From: a virus
Reading direction: 5' to 3' (one strand)
Length of the DNA: 37,619 bases
Virus record (IMG/VR): IMGVR_UViG_3300037529_000004
Coordinates: 1 to 37,619 of that record
Shown here: positions 1,477 through 20,218 of the stretch, piece by piece
How positions within the stretch are numbered: the stretch's first letter is position 1
How the letters are laid out: the number at the start of each line of letters is the position of its first letter
The notes under the pieces: generated by a model
Database searches by the model: none
What the model was told of the DNA's origin: nothing
The model's input: only the letters and a program-made list of their open reading frames with translations
Made by a program: the position numbers and the translations under genes

Positions 1477-1835
1477 TCGGCGGCCTCGGCCGGCGGGTCG
1501 GGCGGCATGCGGCGGGCGATGTCGGCAACCAAGGCGGCGACGATCTCGCCGAGCGGACGCAGGCCTTGGTGTTGGGACCAAATGGGGGGTTGGGACCGGG
1601 GTCGGGACCACGGAGACCCGCAGATTTCCTTACTAGGTCCCAACGGTCCCAACGGTCCCAACCTATTTTCTATACACGCGAGAGGGTCGGGGACCTTTCG
1701 CGTATACGGGCGCGCAGACAGGTTGGGACCGTTGGGACCTGCCCAATTTTTACAATGATTTAGGTTGGGACCTAGGTTGGGACCTAGGTTGGGACCGGGG
1801 CTTAGGTTAGGACCATTTTTCGGCGGTATTTCCAC
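1473..1835 (-). CDS. Low-complexity ORF over the GGTTGGGACC repeats; doubtful gene
   Basis: This frame is open from inside the end of the helicase-primase gene to a TGA overlapping the next ATG. Its first 90 codons translate the repeat tract as GPNLGPNL and LGPLGPLGP runs. Only the last 30 residues (LGEIVAALVADIARRM...) look like ordinary protein, a short amphipathic helix. Overlap with the next start suggests translation does pass here, perhaps from one of the TTG codons inside the repeats near 1640-1665. A real product could be a peptide of about 60 residues. Alternatively the whole stretch is non-coding and serves as a repeat-containing replication site. The true start cannot be decided from sequence. 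Confidence 0.3.
   Translation of the reverse strand: MEIPPKNGPNLSPGPNLGPNLGPNLNHCKNWAGPNGPNLSARPYTRKVPDPLACIENRLGPLGPLGPSKEICGSPWSRPRSQPPIWSQHQGLRPLGEIVAALVADIARRMPPDPPAEAAE
1571..1814. repeat. Iteron-like GGTTGGGACC repeat cluster
   Basis: About twelve copies of a 9-10 base unit lie in 244 bp. Plus-oriented copies (GTTGGGACC or one-base variants) start at 1571, 1588, 1601, 1721, 1731, 1763, 1775, 1787 and 1804. Three inverted copies in perfect 9-base tandem (GGTCCCAAC) occupy 1636-1662. The three copies at 1761-1796 form exact 12-base tandem repeats of TAGGTTGGGACC. AT-rich stretches (1663-1675, 1745-1762) lie between blocks. The cluster abuts the stop codon of the helicase-primase gene. 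Short clustered repeats in both orientations next to replication genes resemble replication-origin iterons, and similar GGGAC repeats accompany primase genes in other proteobacterial prophages. The origin role is inference. Confidence 0.75.
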
Positions 1836-3052
1836 TCTCTGTCCCTCCCGTTTCGCGCCCTAAACCGTTCAAAGTCAAGCTGTTTTAGGCAGGCGGCGAC
1901 CCGCATCTGACTTGCGCGGTCGTAATCCTGTTGCTTAAAGCCCAGGTCTCTGAGGCATTCGGCGACCGAAATCTCGTTGCGGGTTCCCACGATGTCCCGA
2001 ATCAGGTCGATCCAGGCATCGCTAGCCTGTCGTTCTTCCTGCACGGCTTTTGCCTGCTTTGTCAGATCGTCGGTGTCGAGCCACCAGACCTCTCCGGCGC
2101 GGTAACAATCGCGCGCCTCGGCCCAGAGCTGATCGCGCACGCCGCGCAGTCCCTCAATGTCGATCGTCCCGCAAGCCACGGGCCAGAACCGGCGCAAGCC
2201 GGTTTCGTCGCGGCCCCATTCGGTTTCGTTGGTCGTGGCGCAGAACACGGTCTGTCGGGCGAGGCGCACGACGGCGCGCCCATAAGGCGGGCGAAAGCGA
2301 TCGTGGGTGCGCGACAGGTACGCCTTAACGCGGGAGACGTCCCGGTGCTTGATCGAATCAAGTTCGGCGATCTCGATGATCCACACGCCCGAAAGCTGCA
2401 TCGCGGCGTCTTTGCTGCCGACCTCGGCGAGTTCGTCCGTGAACCAGTCGCCGCCCAAAATCTTTAGGGCCGACGATTTCAGCGTGCCTTGTTCGCCCTC
2501 GAGCACTAGGAGGCAATCCGCCTTGCAGCCGGGGTCGCAGATCCGTGCTATGGCCGAGATCATCCAGCGGGCGGAAACGGCGCGCATGTAGGCGCTATCC
2601 TCGGCCCCGAGATAGCGCAGGGTCCATGTGTCGAGGCGCTTTGTGCCGTCCCATTCCAGGCTATCGAGATAGGCGCGAACCGGGTGGAATGTGTTTGCGC
2701 TGGCGGTAAGCTCGGCGGCTTGGCGTACGATAGCGGGCGAGACGAAGATTCCGACGTGCTGCATCCATTTGGCGGCGCGCAAATCGTCGATGTCGCTCCA
2801 GTATTGCTGCCGCTGGTGATCCCAGATCTCGTTCGCGAAGGCGTCGAAGGCGAGGCGCCCGGCCCATTCCTCGGACAGACGCAGGGCTGTTTCGGCATTC
2901 GCCATCAGGGCTTTCGGCTTGCCCTCCTGGTTTTTGATCAGCAGGTCTTTCCAGTCGCCGTTGCCGTAATTTCCGGAAGCGACGGGCCGGCGGCTCTTGC
3001 GCTTTTGCGCCGGCCGCGGCGGGATCGGGGACGGCCCCTCAAACACAGGCAT
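1802..3052 (-). CDS. VirE/VapE-family helicase-primase ATPase
   Basis: 416 residues, a VirE (virulence-associated E, PF05272-type) replication ATPase. An N-terminal segment (residues 45-130) leads into the P-loop domain: Walker A GEQGTLKS at about 186-193, Walker B WIIEIAELD at about 224-232, the sensor-like FCATTNE at about 270-276, and an arginine-rich LRRFWPV at the expected arginine-finger position. These are SF3-like ring-helicase features. The protein likely unwinds DNA for phage replication. The start at 3052 has GGAGG seven bases upstream and overlaps the previous gene by 14 bp; an earlier ATG at 3184 lies in the overlapping gene and lacks comparable support. No Toprim or AEP primase motif is visible, so priming may be done by the upstream protein or the host. 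Confidence 0.92.
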   Translation of the reverse strand: MPVFEGPSPIPPRPAQKRKSRRPVASGNYGNGDWKDLLIKNQEGKPKALMANAETALRLSEEWAGRLAFDAFANEIWDHQRQQYWSDIDDLRAAKWMQHVGIFVSPAIVRQAAELTASANTFHPVRAYLDSLEWDGTKRLDTWTLRYLGAEDSAYMRAVSARWMISAIARICDPGCKADCLLVLEGEQGTLKSSALKILGGDWFTDELAEVGSKDAAMQLSGVWIIEIAELDSIKHRDVSRVKAYLSRTHDRFRPPYGRAVVRLARQTVFCATTNETEWGRDETGLRRFWPVACGTIDIEGLRGVRDQLWAEARDCYRAGEVWWLDTDDLTKQAKAVQEERQASDAWIDLIRDIVGTRNEISVAECLRDLGFKQQDYDRASQMRVAACLKQLDFERFRARNGRDREWKYRRKMVLT

Positions 3053-3635
3053 GCGCCGCCTCCACCGTTGGGGCGCGCCAAGGGCAGGCGAGGGCACGGC
3101 GCAGGGTGCGGGCGTGCGCTTCGTCGGCGGCGACAAGACCGCCCAGGCAACCGGCCAGGATCGGATATTGGTCGGCGGGTTCATCGGACAGCAGCACCAG
3201 CCCGCTGCGGCCGGCGCGCAGCCAGTCGAGCGCCGAGCGGTGTATAAGCACCGCCTCCGGCTCTAGGTACTGCGGCTCGATACAGCCGAGCCACGTCGCG
3301 GCACCGACGCGCAGAGCCATCTGCTCCGGCGCGCTCGGGTGCCAGGCGACGAGATCGACGATAGGCCCCCACTGCGAGAAGATGCGCGGTCGGCGCGATT
3401 GCGGGGTTGTGCCCCTCTCCAGCCGCACCGGCGTCACAACGACGACATCACCGTTCGGCGCAGGCGCATAAAGACCATTGCTGATCGAGACGCGCTCGAT
3501 GCCGCACAGCCCGCGGTGGCCGTCGATGTCGCGCGCGTCGATGCCGAGATCGATCAGCGCGGCGCGGTAGTCGGCATCGAGACGGCCCGCGGCGGCGCGC
3601 ATTTCCGCGCGCAAATCAATCGGTTTCTCAGGCAA
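3039..3635 (-). CDS. Phage replication-module protein of unknown function
   Basis: 198 residues. I choose the TTG at 3635 because GGAGG lies six bases before it; reading back to an ATG at 3761 would translate the structured leader. The N-terminus is a helix (PEKPIDLRAEMRAAAGRL...). The body has beta-strand segments around GDVVVVTPVRL, IVDLVAWHP and RVGAATWLGCIEPQY, then HRSALDWLRAGRSGLVLLSDEPAD and a final helix pair. The SGLVLLSDE-like strand recalls Rossmann or Toprim-type folds, but no catalytic motif can be assigned. Similar proteins sit directly before VirE helicase genes in other alphaproteobacterial phages, so a primase accessory role is possible. It overlaps the helicase-primase by 14 bp, which suggests coupled translation. 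Confidence 0.7.
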   Translation of the reverse strand: MPEKPIDLRAEMRAAAGRLDADYRAALIDLGIDARDIDGHRGLCGIERVSISNGLYAPAPNGDVVVVTPVRLERGTTPQSRRPRIFSQWGPIVDLVAWHPSAPEQMALRVGAATWLGCIEPQYLEPEAVLIHRSALDWLRAGRSGLVLLSDEPADQYPILAGCLGGLVAADEAHARTLRRALACPWRAPTVEAAHACV

Positions 3636-3748
3636 TCGGGGCCTCCATCGGGTTGCACGAAACCCGTTCGGAAGCGGCCCGATGAAGGCGCACCTCGCCT
3701 GTGGCGTGATGACACGCTTGCTTTTCGCGGCGAGATGGGGAAATCTCA

Positions 3749-3991
3749 GGGTTGCAGCCACTGAGTTTCGTCGGCTTCTCGCCGGATATCAGACCCGCCT
3801 TCCGAGGCGGGTTTGTTATTTCCGCGTTCAGCGTGGCGCATCTGCGCGCCGTGCGCAAGGCGCCCGTGGCAAGAATCGGGCTTGCGAAAATCGGCGCGCT
3901 GTGCGAGGGAATGGTGGCGGTGGCGACACCGAGTTCCCTCGGCCTTTGCGCCGATATGCACAGCCCCGATTCCAGCCGGGGCTTTGCTATT
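3749..3991 (-). ncRNA. Structured leader with two copies of a double-hairpin repeat
   Basis: The 413 bp between 3636 and 4049 hold no convincing gene but two homologous 72-73 nt units on the minus strand: A at 3991-3919 and B at 3820-3749, starting 171 nt apart. Each runs AATARCAAA, then a 7-bp GC hairpin (A: AGCCCCG/CGGGGCT at 3983-3962; B: ACCCGCC/GGCGGGT at 3812-3793), an ATATC box, a second small stem (A: TCGGC/GCCGA; B: CGGC/GCCG), then GRAACTC and a GTG-rich tail. The stems differ in sequence but keep their pairing, which is compensatory change. The tails of A (GGTGTCGCCAC) and B (GTGGCTGCAACC) are partly complementary. This layout, a repeated structured leader before a primase operon, resembles P4 CI / P1 C4 antisense immunity RNAs. 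The identity is not proven. Confidence 0.5.
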
Positions 3992-4049
3992 CTGGGATCT
4001 CTCTCCCATAGCGCCGGCACGATTGCCGGGTGCGGCCCGCGCAAGTCGT

Positions 4050-4262
4050 TCATGGCGGCCCCCGCCGCACGCCGATCTGATGATTGCGCTCGGCCAGCAG
4101 ATGCCGCAGCCCGGCCGCCAGCAGCTCCCCCGCGAGTTGCAGACAGCGCAGCGGCGCCAGCAGCACGATCGTCGGCGGGCCGTCGGGCGCGGCGTAGGCG
4201 TGGAGCTGGATGCTGACGCCGTCCACCACGATCGCCCGGCTGCCCGGCTGCGGGTCGCTCAA
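4050..4262 (-). CDS. Small conserved-looking phage protein
   Basis: 70 residues, probably starting at the TTG at 4262, which overlaps the stop of the upstream PEP-CTERM gene (TTGA) and so is likely read by translational coupling. The sequence has a beta-hairpin-like start (SRAIVVDGVSIQLHAYAAPDG) followed by IVLLAPLRCLQLAGELLAAGLRHLL, an amphipathic rather than membrane-spanning helix, and a basic tail. I do not recognise a characterised family. It is the last gene before the long structured leader. Good coding character and the overlap support it as real; no function can be proposed. Confidence 0.6.
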   Translation of the reverse strand: MSDPQPGSRAIVVDGVSIQLHAYAAPDGPPTIVLLAPLRCLQLAGELLAAGLRHLLAERNHQIGVRRGPP

Positions 4263-4984
4263 ACGCCGCGCCGCCGCCGGACGATGCCAAACCCGAGCAG
4301 CGCCGCGCCCAACAGCGCCAGCGAGCCCGGCTCAAGGACGGCGAGCTGTGGCTTGATCTCAGACTCGCCACGGCTCAAGAGCGACGCGCCGGGCTGTAGC
4401 GTCCCGCTTGCGGTAAGGGTCATGCTGAAAAGCGCGCCGTCTGTTGTCGCGCCGGAATCATCAAAAGAAAATGATTGCGAACGGGCGAGCGTCTGCGTTG
4501 CGGTGAATGTGTCGAGAACATTCCCTGGGAGATCGTTGAATGTCTCGGCGCCTTGTGCGTTTGACGGATCGTTCAGCCATTGATATGTCACGGTCGAGCC
4601 TGTGACAGCGCCGTTAAATGTCCCCGATCCGCTAACAAAAAATTGATTGATCGGGCCAAGAAAATCGGTGTCGCCAACAGTGAACGTGATGTCAACCGGT
4701 GTGGTGTTATTGTTGATAACGCTCAGACTAGATGTCGTGATCGTGTTGTCGCCGCCTTTGGTCGAAGCGCTGATCTGGCCGTTGACGGAGACGCCGTTGA
4801 TGGTCTGATCGGCGAGCTGCAAGATGCCAACCGTGCTGTTCGTATCGCAGGCGGAGTTGTTGTCCACGCACGTCGCCGTGGTGCCGCCGACATTGTAGGA
4901 AACCATCAGCTCGGCACTTGCCGGCGCCGCAGAAATAAGCGCGGCGAGGCTGGCAACGGCCGCTTGTATAATTGTGTTACGCAT
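4259..4984 (-). CDS. PEP-CTERM sorted surface protein (phage cargo gene)
   Basis: 241 residues. The start at 4984 has a perfect AGGAGG five bases upstream. Residues 1-24 are a signal peptide ending in ASA. The mature region is Ser/Thr/Asn/Gly-rich with alternating beta-strand character (TITTSSLSVINNNT, GTFNGAVTGSTVTYQW), typical of PEP-CTERM proteins, and has two cysteines near its N-terminus. The C-terminus is a complete sorting signal: the EPGS motif, a hydrophobic helix (LALLGAALLGFGIV) and an RRRR cluster. In hosts with exosortase (EpsH) this tail is processed for export to the surface or extracellular matrix. The gene lies between nuclease and primase genes, 13 bp after one gene and overlapping the next, so it is transcribed with early replication genes. 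It looks more AT-rich than its neighbours, which suggests host origin. Confidence 0.9.
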   Translation of the reverse strand: MRNTIIQAAVASLAALISAAPASAELMVSYNVGGTTATCVDNNSACDTNSTVGILQLADQTINGVSVNGQISASTKGGDNTITTSSLSVINNNTTPVDITFTVGDTDFLGPINQFFVSGSGTFNGAVTGSTVTYQWLNDPSNAQGAETFNDLPGNVLDTFTATQTLARSQSFSFDDSGATTDGALFSMTLTASGTLQPGASLLSRGESEIKPQLAVLEPGSLALLGAALLGFGIVRRRRGV

Positions 4985-4997
4985 GGGTTCCTCCTGG

Positions 4998-5189
4998 TTA
5001 AAAAGGCTGCTCCGGGTCGTCGGCGCGCGGATCATCGGCGCGGACGAATTGGCACTTGAGCAGGCGGGCCAATAAGTCTTCCTGGACCTCGGGCGTTTGC
5101 TCGCCGCCGGCCTCGAGCAGCTCGAAATGCGCGGCGAGGTCATTGATCAACTGTTCATCCATCAGATAGAAAAGCTTTTGCCGCCTCAC
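4998..5189 (-). CDS. Small acidic helical protein
   Basis: 63 residues from a GTG at 5189 that overlaps the stop of the nuclease gene (GTGA) and has GAGG six bases upstream; an internal ATG at 5162 lacks such a site. The sequence MDEQLINDLAAHFELLEAGGEQTPEVQEDLLARLLKC is almost wholly helical and acidic, with a polar ADDPRADDPEQPF tail. No family recognised. Placement and overlap indicate a true operon member; it might be a small regulator or binding partner, but nothing in the sequence shows which. Confidence 0.55.
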   Translation of the reverse strand: MRRQKLFYLMDEQLINDLAAHFELLEAGGEQTPEVQEDLLARLLKCQFVRADDPRADDPEQPF

Positions 5190-6498: not shown

Positions 6499-8381
6499 GA
6501 AGTCCACATCTCTAAACAGTTGATCATTGCTTGGAGACGCGGCACGTCGCGGCAGGACCGGAGCGTCTCCTCAATGCCCGCGCGTCGCTTCGCCTCTGCA
6601 GTGATTGTCTTGCGGTGCTGCGTCCAACCTGCCTGATCGGTGCGGTAATCACACTTTGAGTTTGCGTATTTTCGCGTGAGTTCGTTTATACGCTCATAAA
6701 GCGTCTCACGATCATCGCTGACATTATCAACGACGATTTCCTCCACATCTTCATCATCTTCGGTGATCGTAATCTGGCCGCTGTCGAGACGACGCGCGAT
6801 TTCTACCCGATCGTAAATCATCGCCAATTTTGGTTGTTGACGCAAAACCTTGCTAACCATCTCATCTTTGGCATAACCGATTGCATCCAAATGGAGATCG
6901 GTTACGCCGGCATTAAAGGGGTTCGAGATATCAGGTTCAGGCGGCGGATCGCCGGGCTCACGTTCCTCATCTTCAAGCCGCACTTTGTTGGCTAGGGATG
7001 CCAGGTCGCCGCCTTCATTAGCCACAACATATGCATAAAGGTCTTGTGTAATAATATCGTCGGGCAGGATCAATGTACCATTGTTAGCCAGCGGTCTACC
7101 ATCAGCATCTTCCCAGGGCGTCGCAATTCGCAGCCACCTCTGTATGCCACCCGACGATGTACGAATAACTGATAGATCTAGGGCGGTTTTAGTACGATCC
7201 GTATCGAGCCCGGTGCCACCCATCTGTTTAACTATCAGCACGTCGCCAACACCGGGCGTTTCGTCGGTTCCGACAAACCGAGCAATGCGCCGAGCTGCCT
7301 CCTCCTGTTTCATGCCGTGCTGCATCGCTATAACTACGACAGGGGCGACGCCAGTTTTCTGCCGCCAGACCGTTCCGATGATGTTCTTAACTTGGCTGGT
7401 ATGTCTTTCGTCCTCTGCCTCGTTCTGCGCATCATTGCCGACATAGACAATCGAGGCGCTGGTTGGGGCCGTATGCCTGCGCGTCATAACATCATCGACC
7501 AGAAGCTCCGCTCCCTGGCGGATCACGGCAGGATCACGCACCGCTAGGGACAAAGCCTTACGCACCCTGGCCGCATCCTTAATGGCGCTGATTACCTGCC
7601 CATCGGAATAGTAGGAAAACCATCGCGCCTGCACTGGAACGAGATACCCCTTCGTCCAAGCGTCTTTCCGAGTGAACTCATAGTCCGCCTCCAGTTCATA
7701 GGCGACACGTTCAGCCGAATAAACCTTGAAGATCGGCTCGCCGGCGGCGTCATGACCGGGAACCCGATAATTCACCGCCTGGCGGGCTAGTTCCTTTACG
7801 CGAAATCCATACGGCGCGATATTGTCGGAGCGATGTTTTGATCCGGTCAATAAAACAACATGCGCGCCAGAAGCCTCCAGCCGTGCAGCAGTCTTACCCC
7901 AACCTGCCTGCTCGGAGCTGATAAGGTGCCCTTCGTCTATGTATACAACCAATAGCCTTCCCTGCCGCTTCAGGTGTGCCGCAGTTGCCTCAAGCTGAAT
8001 TAAACTGGATTCCTGTCCGGCAGCCGCAATCGTCATCGACCAAAGATGGCGTGTCGGCGTCGCGAGATAAAAATCCCAATTAAATAACCCCTCCAACTTA
8101 TCCGGGGTGTATCGCGCGATGCGCAAGCGCCGGCACATCCCGTGGATCTTGTCCGGATTAATCAGTTGGTCCCGTAAAAATACCCATGGCGACAGAGCCA
8201 CAGAAACGGCGCGAAACTGTTCAGCAACTTCCAGGGACGCCGCCCTGATCACATAGGACTTGCCGGTGCGTGGCGGCTTGACAATCGCGGAGGTCGTTTG
8301 TCCTTCAGTAATCCGCCGGACAATCGTATCAACTGCGATCTCGATTTCTGGACGGCGATCAGACGCAAACGTCCTCGGCAT
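6495..8381 (-). CDS. SF2 (DEAD/DEAH-like) helicase
   Basis: 628 residues. Motif I is PPRTGKS (residues 36-42), motif II is the DEAH variant DEGH (149-152), and an LLTGSK segment follows as motif III. The second RecA-like domain includes IVKQMGGTGLDTDRTKTALDL near residue 390, corresponding to motifs V/VI. These are features of superfamily 2 nucleic-acid translocases. The C-terminal 170 residues are acidic then basic helical and probably unique to this phage group. The start overlaps the small HNH gene by 23 bp. The gene is visibly more AT-rich than its neighbours. It may open the origin or act with the VirE ATPase and VRR-NUC nuclease. Confidence 0.9.
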   Translation of the reverse strand: MPRTFASDRRPEIEIAVDTIVRRITEGQTTSAIVKPPRTGKSYVIRAASLEVAEQFRAVSVALSPWVFLRDQLINPDKIHGMCRRLRIARYTPDKLEGLFNWDFYLATPTRHLWSMTIAAAGQESSLIQLEATAAHLKRQGRLLVVYIDEGHLISSEQAGWGKTAARLEASGAHVVLLTGSKHRSDNIAPYGFRVKELARQAVNYRVPGHDAAGEPIFKVYSAERVAYELEADYEFTRKDAWTKGYLVPVQARWFSYYSDGQVISAIKDAARVRKALSLAVRDPAVIRQGAELLVDDVMTRRHTAPTSASIVYVGNDAQNEAEDERHTSQVKNIIGTVWRQKTGVAPVVVIAMQHGMKQEEAARRIARFVGTDETPGVGDVLIVKQMGGTGLDTDRTKTALDLSVIRTSSGGIQRWLRIATPWEDADGRPLANNGTLILPDDIITQDLYAYVVANEGGDLASLANKVRLEDEEREPGDPPPEPDISNPFNAGVTDLHLDAIGYAKDEMVSKVLRQQPKLAMIYDRVEIARRLDSGQITITEDDEDVEEIVVDNVSDDRETLYERINELTRKYANSKCDYRTDQAGWTQHRKTITAEAKRRAGIEETLRSCRDVPRLQAMINCLEMWTS

Positions 8382-8589
8382 ACTTCACTCCCTTTTTTAA
8401 ATTGCATTGCGGACAGGTTGCTTGGAGTTCAGAAAGCACCGTCCGGCCAGTGACCGAGAACGGGATGATGTGATCCGCATGAAATTCCCGAATAGCGATC
8501 GGCGTACCACATATCGCGCACCGTCCGTTTGCTCGGCGATGGAGCAACACCCGCTCCAATTTTGACGGTCTGCGTCGTCTCATCGTCAT
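8359..8589 (-). CDS. Small HNH endonuclease
   Basis: 76 residues from the ATG at 8589, which overlaps the previous stop (ATGA). After a basic start (MTMRRRRPSKLERVLLHRR) comes a compact HNH domain: CAICG, then FHADHIIPFS, then LQATCPQCNLKKG, giving two CxxC zinc ligands around the catalytic DH. This is close to the smallest functional HNH size. It is followed at once, with 23 bp overlap, by the helicase, so nuclease and helicase are probably made together. It could be a nicking or replication-linked nuclease or a free-standing homing endonuclease; the tight operon overlap favours a fixed role. Confidence 0.87.
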   Translation of the reverse strand: MTMRRRRPSKLERVLLHRRANGRCAICGTPIAIREFHADHIIPFSVTGRTVLSELQATCPQCNLKKGVKYAEDVCV

Positions 8590-8879
8590 CCCCGCCCGGC
8601 GCCGGGGGAGCGGCTGGCACCGGCGTTGGCGGCACCGTCGCATGGCGACCGGGCGGGGATCGGGATGTCGGCGGGCCAGGGGAGATCGAGCGGCCAGTTC
8701 GCGGCGAGCCAGCATGCAGCGCGCTCCAGCGTGCGCACGGTGCAGGTCTTGCCGGCAGCCAAGCGGGTAAATACCTTGTCGTTGTTGGCCGCCTTGACGC
8801 CGATCGTGACCAGCGAGCGGCCGACATGGTCGCTGTAGGCGCGCGCCAGGCGCAGCAGATCGTCGGCCGAGAGGCTCAT
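8586..8879 (-). CDS. Small DNA-binding-like protein, first gene of the early operon
   Basis: 97 residues. LSADDLLRLARAYSDHVGRSLVTIGVKAANNDKVFTRLAAGKTCTVRTLERAACWLAANWP reads as a four-to-five-helix domain with a helix-turn-helix pattern (SLVTIGVKAANNDKVFTRL), a type common in small alphaproteobacterial phage proteins. The C-terminus is a disordered Pro/Ala/Gly tail. It is the promoter-proximal gene opposite the repressor at 8985, the position of Cro in lambda-like switches. A palindrome (8885-8902) lies just before the start codon, and no clear Shine-Dalgarno is seen. A Cro-like role is inference. Confidence 0.65.
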   Translation of the reverse strand: MSLSADDLLRLARAYSDHVGRSLVTIGVKAANNDKVFTRLAAGKTCTVRTLERAACWLAANWPLDLPWPADIPIPARSPCDGAANAGASRSPGAGRG

Positions 8880-18472: not shown

Positions 18473-19281
18473 TAGCAGCAGCCCCCGAGGTAGTTATGCG
18501 GGTCGAGCGCGTGCCGGTGCGTCGGCGGCTCGGCGCGGTAGCGTAACGGCGGCGGCACGGGCGGCGGATGCAGCGGGTCATTGATGCTGCCGGGCATCGG
18601 GTAGACCCACAATGAGTTGATATTAAAAAACGTACCCCAGCCCGGCGGTTGCGGCGGCAAGGCACCCACGGTTGTAAACTGGCAGTGCGCCTGCACTGTC
18701 ATGTGCGGGTAACGCACGGTTTCCCACGGCACGGCAGACGTTCGCATCACCTCGACCATGAACATTGGCGGGTAATACTCCGTATCGACGTTGATGAACG
18801 GGATCGTCGCTTGCGCGCCGTTTATGATTTCATCGGCGGGCGGCGGATCGGACAGCATATTGCCGAACAGTTGCGGGTTTGTATTGCGCCATATCTTGTA
18901 CCTGGAAACGGCGCCGGGATAACCCGATATTCCTAGCCAGGTCAGCGTCCATTTCTCGGGTGACCCCCACACATACGGACGGATGGTTGCCAGTCCCATT
19001 GTGACGTAATCTTGGAAACAGGGGAAATACATCCACGGCTTGTCTGCGTCATGACCGAGATTGCTGTCGGGAATGTGCATATACATATTAGCGACCCACA
19101 GCGTGTAGACGCCGCTGAAACCTATCGGTGCGCCCGGAACCAGGCCATTTTCAAACATGCCGCAATAGGCGTAGGGATCGCCGCCAGTGTCAGGCGGGCC
19201 GCCGCCATTGTTCTCTTTGAAATGCACCGCAATGATTTCATCGCCGGGAAACTCGGTATAGGTATTTCCGCTATCGCTCAT
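18472..19281 (-). CDS. Tail-associated protein of unknown function
   Basis: 269 residues; start overlaps the previous stop (ATGA). The sequence is rich in aromatic residues and proline (GVYTLWVANMYMHIPDSN, YFPCFQDYVTMGLATIRPYVWGSPEKWTLTWLGISGYPG, TEYYPPMFMVEVMRTS), suggesting a compact beta protein. A C-terminal segment is proline-rich (HPPPVPPPLRYR) and ends with CC. I know no characterised relatives. Its position between the duplicated tail genes and the receptor fiber suggests a tail-tip or fiber-attachment part. Confidence 0.65.
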   Translation of the reverse strand: MSDSGNTYTEFPGDEIIAVHFKENNGGGPPDTGGDPYAYCGMFENGLVPGAPIGFSGVYTLWVANMYMHIPDSNLGHDADKPWMYFPCFQDYVTMGLATIRPYVWGSPEKWTLTWLGISGYPGAVSRYKIWRNTNPQLFGNMLSDPPPADEIINGAQATIPFINVDTEYYPPMFMVEVMRTSAVPWETVRYPHMTVQAHCQFTTVGALPPQPPGWGTFFNINSLWVYPMPGSINDPLHPPPVPPPLRYRAEPPTHRHALDPHNYLGGCC

Positions 19282-19742
19282 GAAGCTGCGGCTGCTGGCC
19301 GCGTGTTTGGCTTATAGGTGATCTCGTGCTTGCATTGCTCGTCGGTCGTGTTGTCGCCGGCAAATTCCATGTCCATTTCGAACTCGGCCAATGCTTCACT
19401 CGTACCAAAGGCAACGCCGCTCATCTGGTCCCATTCGCTTGCACACTCGTTTTTGTGCTTGTTATTCAGCTTCATCTTGCTGGCGCGCGCCACGTCAACC
19501 CAATTCTCAGGTTCGTTGTCTTGAGTGATCCGCAAGACGTTGGTCTCGCGCTCGAACTCGGTCTCCTTGCTTGAGCAGCATTCGACATTCGTGCCGCTGC
19601 GTGCCGGCACGATCTTGCCGTCGGAAGTAGCGCCCCACGTCAAAGTGGCTCGCTCTTTGGTAGCACCGGGGGTCGATGCAATAATCGTGCGACCGAGCGC
19701 CCCAGGACTTTGGTAGGGTCTAACAAAGCTCTCAAACGGCAT
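19278..19742 (-). CDS. Duplicated tail protein, copy 2
   Basis: 154 residues, ATG at 19742 overlapping the previous stop by one base (TGATG). It is a clear paralogue of the gene immediately upstream: both open MPFExFVRPYQSPGxLGR, share TPGATKERAxLTWG, TSDGKIxPARSGTNVECC, SxWDQMSGVAxGTSEALAEFExDM and FAGDNxT. The middle region differs in sequence and length. Copies share the double cysteine in VECC. No known function; probably a structural or decorating element of the tail tip. Ends with an alanine-rich tail. Confidence 0.72.
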   Translation of the reverse strand: MPFESFVRPYQSPGALGRTIIASTPGATKERATLTWGATSDGKIVPARSGTNVECCSSKETEFERETNVLRITQDNEPENWVDVARASKMKLNNKHKNECASEWDQMSGVAFGTSEALAEFEMDMEFAGDNTTDEQCKHEITYKPNTRPAAAAS

Positions 19743-20218
19743 CAGGCTGCTTTCCCGTCTGGTGTGTTGTGCAAGCTCCAGGAAACGCCGCATTCCGAGC
19801 TTGTCGAATTGTCGCCGGCAAACGCCATGTCCGCCTCGAACTCGGCAAGCGCCTCGGACGTACCGAGAGCGACGCCCGACATCTGGTCCCAATCGGAAAT
19901 GCAGGAGCTTTCTTCGCGCTGCTTGAATTTGAGCTTATTGGCGCGTTGGAAATCGACACGCTGCCCGGCAGAGGGGCCACCGTCCGGCGCCACGACCGCC
20001 ACGTCCTCGAAATCGCTGTCTTTGTGGTCGCTCTGCTTGCTTGAGCGCTTGCAGCATTCGACGTTCGTGCCTGAGCGCGCCGGCGTTATCTTGCCGTCGC
20101 TCGTGCTGCCCCATGTGAGCCTCGCTCGCTCTTTCGTGGCGCCGGGAGTGGCCGCAATGCGGATGCGACCGAGCGTGCCGGGCGATTGATACGGCCGAAC
20201 AAACCCCTCAAATGGCAC
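19742..20218 (-). CDS. Duplicated tail protein, copy 1
   Basis: 158 residues from a GTG at 20218, overlapping the upstream gene by 11 bp. See its neighbour for the shared blocks. Specific to this copy are a lysine/serine-rich insert after the VECC motif (CKRSSKQSDHKDSDFEDVAVV), and the central RVDFQRANKLKFKQREESSCISDWDQMSG. The copies lie head to tail, indicating a tandem duplication with later divergence in the middle segment. Function unknown; late-operon position points to a virion component. Confidence 0.72.
   Translation of the reverse strand: MPFEGFVRPYQSPGTLGRIRIAATPGATKERARLTWGSTSDGKITPARSGTNVECCKRSSKQSDHKDSDFEDVAVVAPDGGPSAGQRVDFQRANKLKFKQREESSCISDWDQMSGVALGTSEALAEFEADMAFAGDNSTSSECGVSWSLHNTPDGKAA

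Follow-up and report, generated by a model that had tools for sequence, protein, structure and literature searches.

A candidate antisense-RNA family opposite the leader of replication operons in phages and plasmids

The window analysed here is the whole 37,619-nt stretch of the IMG/VR virus record IMGVR_UViG_3300037529_000004. Its early operon is read on the minus strand and carries two similar units just before the replication genes. The features of the locus, by position, are:

1802-3184, minus strand: gene for a VapE-type helicase/primase (3184-1802), next after the first gene downstream of the element
3039-3635, minus strand: first gene after the element, probable start TTG at 3635-3633, without a family match
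3628-4053, minus strand: 141-codon open frame across both units, with an ATGA overlap with the preceding 70-codon frame
3641-3689, minus strand: operon-mRNA hairpin, predicted by folding, in which the next gene's Shine-Dalgarno GGAGG (3642-3646) is paired
3718-3746, plus strand: predicted promoter of unit 1, from conserved boxes (-35 TTGCTT, 3718-3723; 17-nt spacer; -10 AAATCT, 3741-3746)
3728-3784, minus strand: long operon-mRNA stem of unit 1 (3728-3735 with 3777-3784), from an inverted repeat, folding and covariation
3752-3822, plus strand: predicted antisense RNA of unit 1, about 70 nt long, with a 5' tail followed by hairpins H2 and P3 (the terminator), its start placed from the promoter position
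3772-3784, plus strand: hairpin H2 of unit 1 (CGGC-TTCTC-GCCG), with an equivalent predicted in the RNA of nearly all homologues
3790-3822, plus strand: terminator-like hairpin P3 of unit 1, 11 bp, with a T-rich tail, from covariation (helix 3)
3882-3887, plus strand: -35-like TTGCGA of unit 2, its spacing to the next -10-like hexamer 4-5 nt longer
3890-3955, minus strand: long operon-mRNA stem of unit 2 (3890-3897 with 3948-3955; 3904-3911 with 3934-3941), from inverted repeat I1 and folding
3922-3992, plus strand: unit 2, the second copy (H2 3939-3954, P3 3962-3983), 97% identical to a copy in phage L003

A first-pass annotation of this DNA had described two units of 72-73 nt with boxes and stems in the same order, and an alignment with both strands read bears this out, placing the units in register on the plus strand at 3756-3820 and 3926-3991. 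The compensatory stem changes that it reported between the units also hold, with a UCGGC/GCCGA-type hairpin and a G+C-rich hairpin present in both. The tails that it called partly complementary are the arms of a longer stem that starts about 25 nt upstream of each unit. The outer arm of this stem lies upstream of the predicted antisense start, so the stem can act only in the operon transcript; in unit 1 the antisense RNA has its 5' end facing the loop of this stem. Compared with dinucleotide shuffles, the short units fold better (z -2.1 to -3.7), as do the extended plus-strand units (z -5.8 and -3.0). The predicted window RNAs (about 3752 to 3822 and about 3922 to 3992) coincide with the 72-73 nt units, and across homologues the predicted RNA is 65-84 nt long and consists of a 5' tail, then H2, then the terminator hairpin P3. 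A further hairpin, variable in sequence (GCAAGA/TCTTGC, GCGTG/CACGC, GCCC/GGGC), is found upstream of each element, for example at 3703-3718 of the window and at 4934-4952 of L047; standing before the -35 box or overlapping with it, this hairpin is not part of the antisense RNA, and its probable place of action is the mRNA.

Related elements number 17 in all, counting the two in the window, and since these homologues share ancestry, counts taken across them are not independent. Protein searches with frames from the region led to one related phage only. The search for the repeats in related phages that the first-pass annotation had suggested, made with DNA patterns from the units, found L003 first and then L027/L029 (nearly identical), L028 and L031, four phages from IMG/VR besides the window. 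A covariance model, R1, was built from six phage elements with no plasmid sequence in it, and reports two copies each in the window and L003 and one each in L027, L028 and L031. The window copies score 89.1 and 86.6 bits with R1 and 91.8 and 79.2 bits with model R2, both copies being included in both models.

Ten plasmids of Hyphomicrobiales also carry the element. A blastn search with the L031 element matched a Shinella plasmid, confirmed by R1 at 41.5 bits (E 2.7e-10), and further blastn searches added plasmids of Neorhizobium, Rhizobium leguminosarum, Methylocystis, Methylorubrum and Methylobacterium. Plasmid homologues outside R1 score 41.5, 39.0, 36.3 and 34.1 bits with it; the phage-only model gives E values of about 4e-8 or better for the Shinella, Neorhizobium and two Methylocystis iwaonis plasmids and weaker ones for the other six, among which Methylorubrum B1-46 also scores strongly, though less so than those four. 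R. leguminosarum, M. radiotolerans, M. extorquens p2META1 and Methylocystis MJC1 score weakly with R1 (13-23 bits); these plasmids were accepted because the conserved boxes are present in their alignment rows. In the match tables no annotated feature lies beneath the element on any plasmid, Rfam scans of the window and loci gave nothing above the gathering score for the element, and two scans of a bacterial genome collection returned no true member. Several matches were dropped: that to Cronobacter phiES15 spans 36 nt and covers the terminator hairpin alone, and those on Pseudomonas and Vibrio plasmids (L054, L055) and in Methylobacterium bullatum (L048) are hairpin-only or chance. Two loci were left out of the counts, L061 (Skermanella), which reaches only 20.7 bits with R2, and L060, which was not recovered.

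Covariation in these homologues was examined in an alignment made with a covariance model, in which 17 of the 20 rows are true elements and the other three are weak or due to chance. Far from the lack of covariation that the first-pass annotation had named as counting against it, 11 of the 15 modelled pairs show changes on both sides and 91% of cells are paired; the covariation score, 0.338, was reached by none of 500 shuffles (0.147) and is destroyed by sliding the partner. As the alignment was fitted to its structure, these figures lean towards that structure. RNAalifold applied to the six-phage alignment gave z -8.3 on the plus strand and -8.1 on the minus strand.

The first-pass annotation had proposed folding the minus strand. 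Terminator polarity, promoter-like boxes and G.U pairs instead place the RNA on the plus strand, and it is most likely made from that strand, opposite the operon. Folding energy is lower on the plus strand in all six phage elements. In a 16-member set, G.U pairs within the predicted RNA number 45 on plus against 2 on minus, and those in helices reaching upstream of the predicted start number 61 against 33; much of the contrast inside the RNA comes from the terminator T tract, so that it mainly fixes terminator polarity, and the G.U argument for the strand is partly built into any terminator with such a tract. A pair of boxes with a fixed 17-nt spacing offers an independent sign for the plus strand. 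The pattern CTTGnnn-N17-nAnnnT occurs in 15 of 16 aligned copies, with CTTG invariant and the A2 and T6 of the -10 box at exactly 17 nt, in a sigma70-like layout that reads away from the replication gene. A CTTGAC-type -35 box is known for Alphaproteobacteria. A simple sigma70 consensus scan did not report the promoter at unit 1, missing it because the -10 boxes are weak: these hexamers match the consensus poorly.

At the 3' end of the predicted RNA there is an intrinsic terminator, and P3 scores as a terminator on the plus strand, as it would if the units were ordinary terminators that shield the operon from counter-transcription. However, the conserved stretch of about 130 nt goes well past a terminator, as it includes promoter boxes and a second stem and shows covariation, and no plus-strand gene lies upstream to be terminated; we therefore consider this explanation highly improbable. 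The second copy departs from the promoter pattern. Its spacer is lengthened by 4-5 nt, so that the promoter of unit 2 is probably inactive, and the same insertion is found in the related L003 copy. Unit 2 may serve as a target site or decoy, or it may be a duplicate in decay.

The element lies upstream of, and antisense to, replication genes in both phages and plasmids. In 10 of the 12 loci measured, the distance from the element to the next gene start is 64-117 nt (for example, 117 nt in L056 and 85 nt in L057); the two outside this range are L051 (289 nt) and L059 (191 nt). In L003, L027 and L031 the element is in the leader of a gene for a primosomal-type DUF1376 protein, while the gene downstream in L028 encodes a putative DnaB-like helicase, judged by reading its sequence. 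Several plasmid neighbours match replication-initiation families, and on the Neorhizobium plasmid ParA-like and ribbon-helix-helix genes lie alongside. Because the element is attached to several unrelated kinds of replication gene, it looks like a movable cassette for copy-number control. Such a position would also suit a replication origin or primase-recognition structure formed by folded single-stranded DNA, but the strand-specific G.U bias and the terminator and promoter signals are features of RNA, and we give this alternative very little credence.

The region had also been described as free of genes. Strictly it is not, since the 141-codon frame is open on the operon strand (4053-3628) and its end overlaps the TTG start of the next gene, with similar bridging frames in L003, L027 and L031. 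A conserved coding gene across the region, another finding that the first-pass annotation had named as counting against it, is likewise not what the operon-strand frame represents, which is open without being conserved. The copies differ by one base (AGAATAGC vs AGAAATAGC), which shifts the frame, and the CCCACATC-CGGCTTTTGCAAGC tail box, though conserved, falls in different reading frames in L003, L027 and L031; protein conservation was rejected on these two grounds. Searches by tblastn with the 141-aa operon-strand frame and a plus-strand frame gave nothing in phages and one weak match in plasmids (E=0.6), and a scan of genomes likewise confirmed no relative. Leader translation may nonetheless matter in phages, by analogy with the coupled leader peptide of some plasmids.

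These frames bear on the alternative that the element acts in cis within the operon mRNA alone, as a translational coupler or processing site, with no separate antisense RNA. In the phages such a frame connects the gene before, which it overlaps, with the start that follows; the long stem, like the upstream hairpin, falls outside the predicted antisense RNA; and the two strands of the alignment are equally significant (minus -8.1, plus -8.3). In contrast, the CTTG-N17-A/T boxes, the terminator polarity and the G.U bias favour the plus strand, and a bridging frame was not found on the Shinella, Neorhizobium and pCC283b_5 plasmids. We regard an element confined to the mRNA as unlikely.

We hypothesize, and consider it probable, that each unit encodes a cis-antisense RNA of some 70 nt, transcribed from the plus strand, which base-pairs with the operon transcript and reduces expression of the replication genes. 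The comparative evidence gives good support to the first-pass annotation where it proposed that a small antisense RNA targets the leader of these genes. As read from the aligned sequences, comparison shows a predicted two-hairpin RNA with a terminator, covariation, promoter-like boxes and a fixed place before replication genes; that this RNA is transcribed, pairs in the cell and represses by pairing, we infer. The antisense RNA would pair with the operon mRNA in the leader of the replication genes, and this pairing would lower their expression in the manner of the ctRNAs on repABC/repC plasmids. It would thus set the amount of replication protein and could render related replicons incompatible. 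The repressing step could be masking of the start site, a stop to transcription, or a block of the coupled leader frame. When occupation by the antisense RNA was simulated, access to the Shine-Dalgarno sequence was clearly reduced in 3 of 10 loci (L027, L031, L049), with no change in the window, where the sequence is already paired in the predicted leader. The hairpin responsible carries weak significance, as such pairing is common among other genes of this G+C-rich window.

The first-pass annotation had likened the units to the immunity RNAs C4 and P4 CI, in which a processed RNA pairs with repeated leader targets and shuts off the lytic operon. The general logic is alike, since C4, P4 CI and isrK are small hairpin RNAs of phages that each control a leader, and the window has repeated units and a small two-hairpin RNA in an early phage operon. 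C4 RNA is processed by RNase P out of a longer transcript. The C4 scan (RF01695) that the annotation had suggested returned nothing for the window phage or for L003, even with E allowed up to 10, against 68.8 and 74.9 bits for the P1 and P4 controls, and the best isrK (RF01394) match in the window reached only 10.7 bits, at another site, against 60.8 bits for the P4 control. The architecture also differs: C4 has a long outer stem around two inner hairpins and lies on the sense strand of its operon, whereas the RNA predicted here is antisense to the operon, lacks that outer stem and is made up of a 5' tail, H2 and a terminator hairpin. Moreover, the relatives stand next to plasmid replication initiators and not next to antirepressor or icd genes. 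The results with the models and the plasmid setting both contradict the immunity-RNA identification, and we judge the chance that it is right to be minimal.

Among described designs, the ctRNA of repABC/repC plasmids comes closest to the predicted RNA; it is antisense to the operon and lies immediately ahead of repC (PMC3155836, PMC10194956). Like the ctRNAs of p42d and pRmeGR4a, the predicted RNA is small and antisense, has a promoter of its own (predicted here), lies opposite a rep operon directly upstream of the initiator, faces a large mRNA stem-loop and belongs to Alphaproteobacteria (PMC3155836, PMC10194956). It differs in length (ctRNA 55-59 nt, about 70 nt here), in occurring also in phages, and in its replication proteins, which are O-like/HTH, DUF1376, VapE and DnaB-like. 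Neither the phages nor the small plasmids matched the ctRNA_p42d model (RF00489) significantly, with 67.5 bits for the p42d control. By analogy, the element would resemble a ctRNA in its predicted working but stands outside Rfam family RF00489. Two R. leguminosarum plasmids, pRLN3 (L050) and pCC283b_5 (L051), have an RF00489 match above the cut-off away from the element, and Methylocystis MJC1 (L059) has one below it, also away from the element; these three may have two RNA-controlled replication modules each. In lambda, the short antisense transcript OOP starts from a promoter opposite the early operon just before O and ends at a terminator (PMC3985674). Compared by layout alone, OOP shares the antisense placement before a replication gene and the terminator end, but it is antisense to the end of cII and acts on cII mRNA through RNase III.

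The best reading of the element is a new antisense-RNA family that controls a phage replication operon and is common to phages and plasmids. The family is absent from the Rfam copy searched, unannotated on sequenced plasmids and common to alphaproteobacterial phages and plasmids. It provides small plasmids of Rhizobiaceae, Methylocystis and Methylobacterium with a predicted incompatibility determinant and opens a direct test of plasmid-style RNA control of replication in phages. In six phage records, not all of them necessarily complete, neither a tyrosine integrase (PF00589) nor a ParA-type ATPase (PF13614) was found, which is compatible with a phage-plasmid life. We suggest, tentatively and with more doubt than confidence, that these are phage-plasmids that use a plasmid-type antisense RNA to set prophage copy number, and that such a resident phage and any phage or plasmid that enters with the same loop exclude one another at replication. 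If true, such exclusion would be an RNA-based immunity separate from the protein repressor. RNA-based replication of extrachromosomal prophages is described in mycobacteriophages, where a noncoding RNA governs replication (PMC7157519); there an initiator RNA lies beside parABS, whereas here the antisense RNA lies opposite a replication gene.

Other genes of the window also drew attention. A protein that resembles a secreted one with a PEP-CTERM sorting signal is encoded in three related phages (window 4259-5143, minus strand; L003 8317-9042, plus strand; L027 11247-11981, minus strand). PEP-CTERM is a tag for surface proteins in exosortase-bearing bacteria, and a gene with this sorting signal is unusual for a phage early operon. 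In the structural gene region, the minus-strand frames 19278-19892 and 19742-20218 encode neighbouring similar proteins, an apparent tandem duplication, both with ...FVRPYQSPG.LGR...TPGATKERA.LTWG.TSDGKI.... Finally, the minus-strand gene at 8359-8715 encodes a small HNH endonuclease-like protein that resembles many phage HNH families and, weakly, the HNH portion of Cas9d/IscB models.
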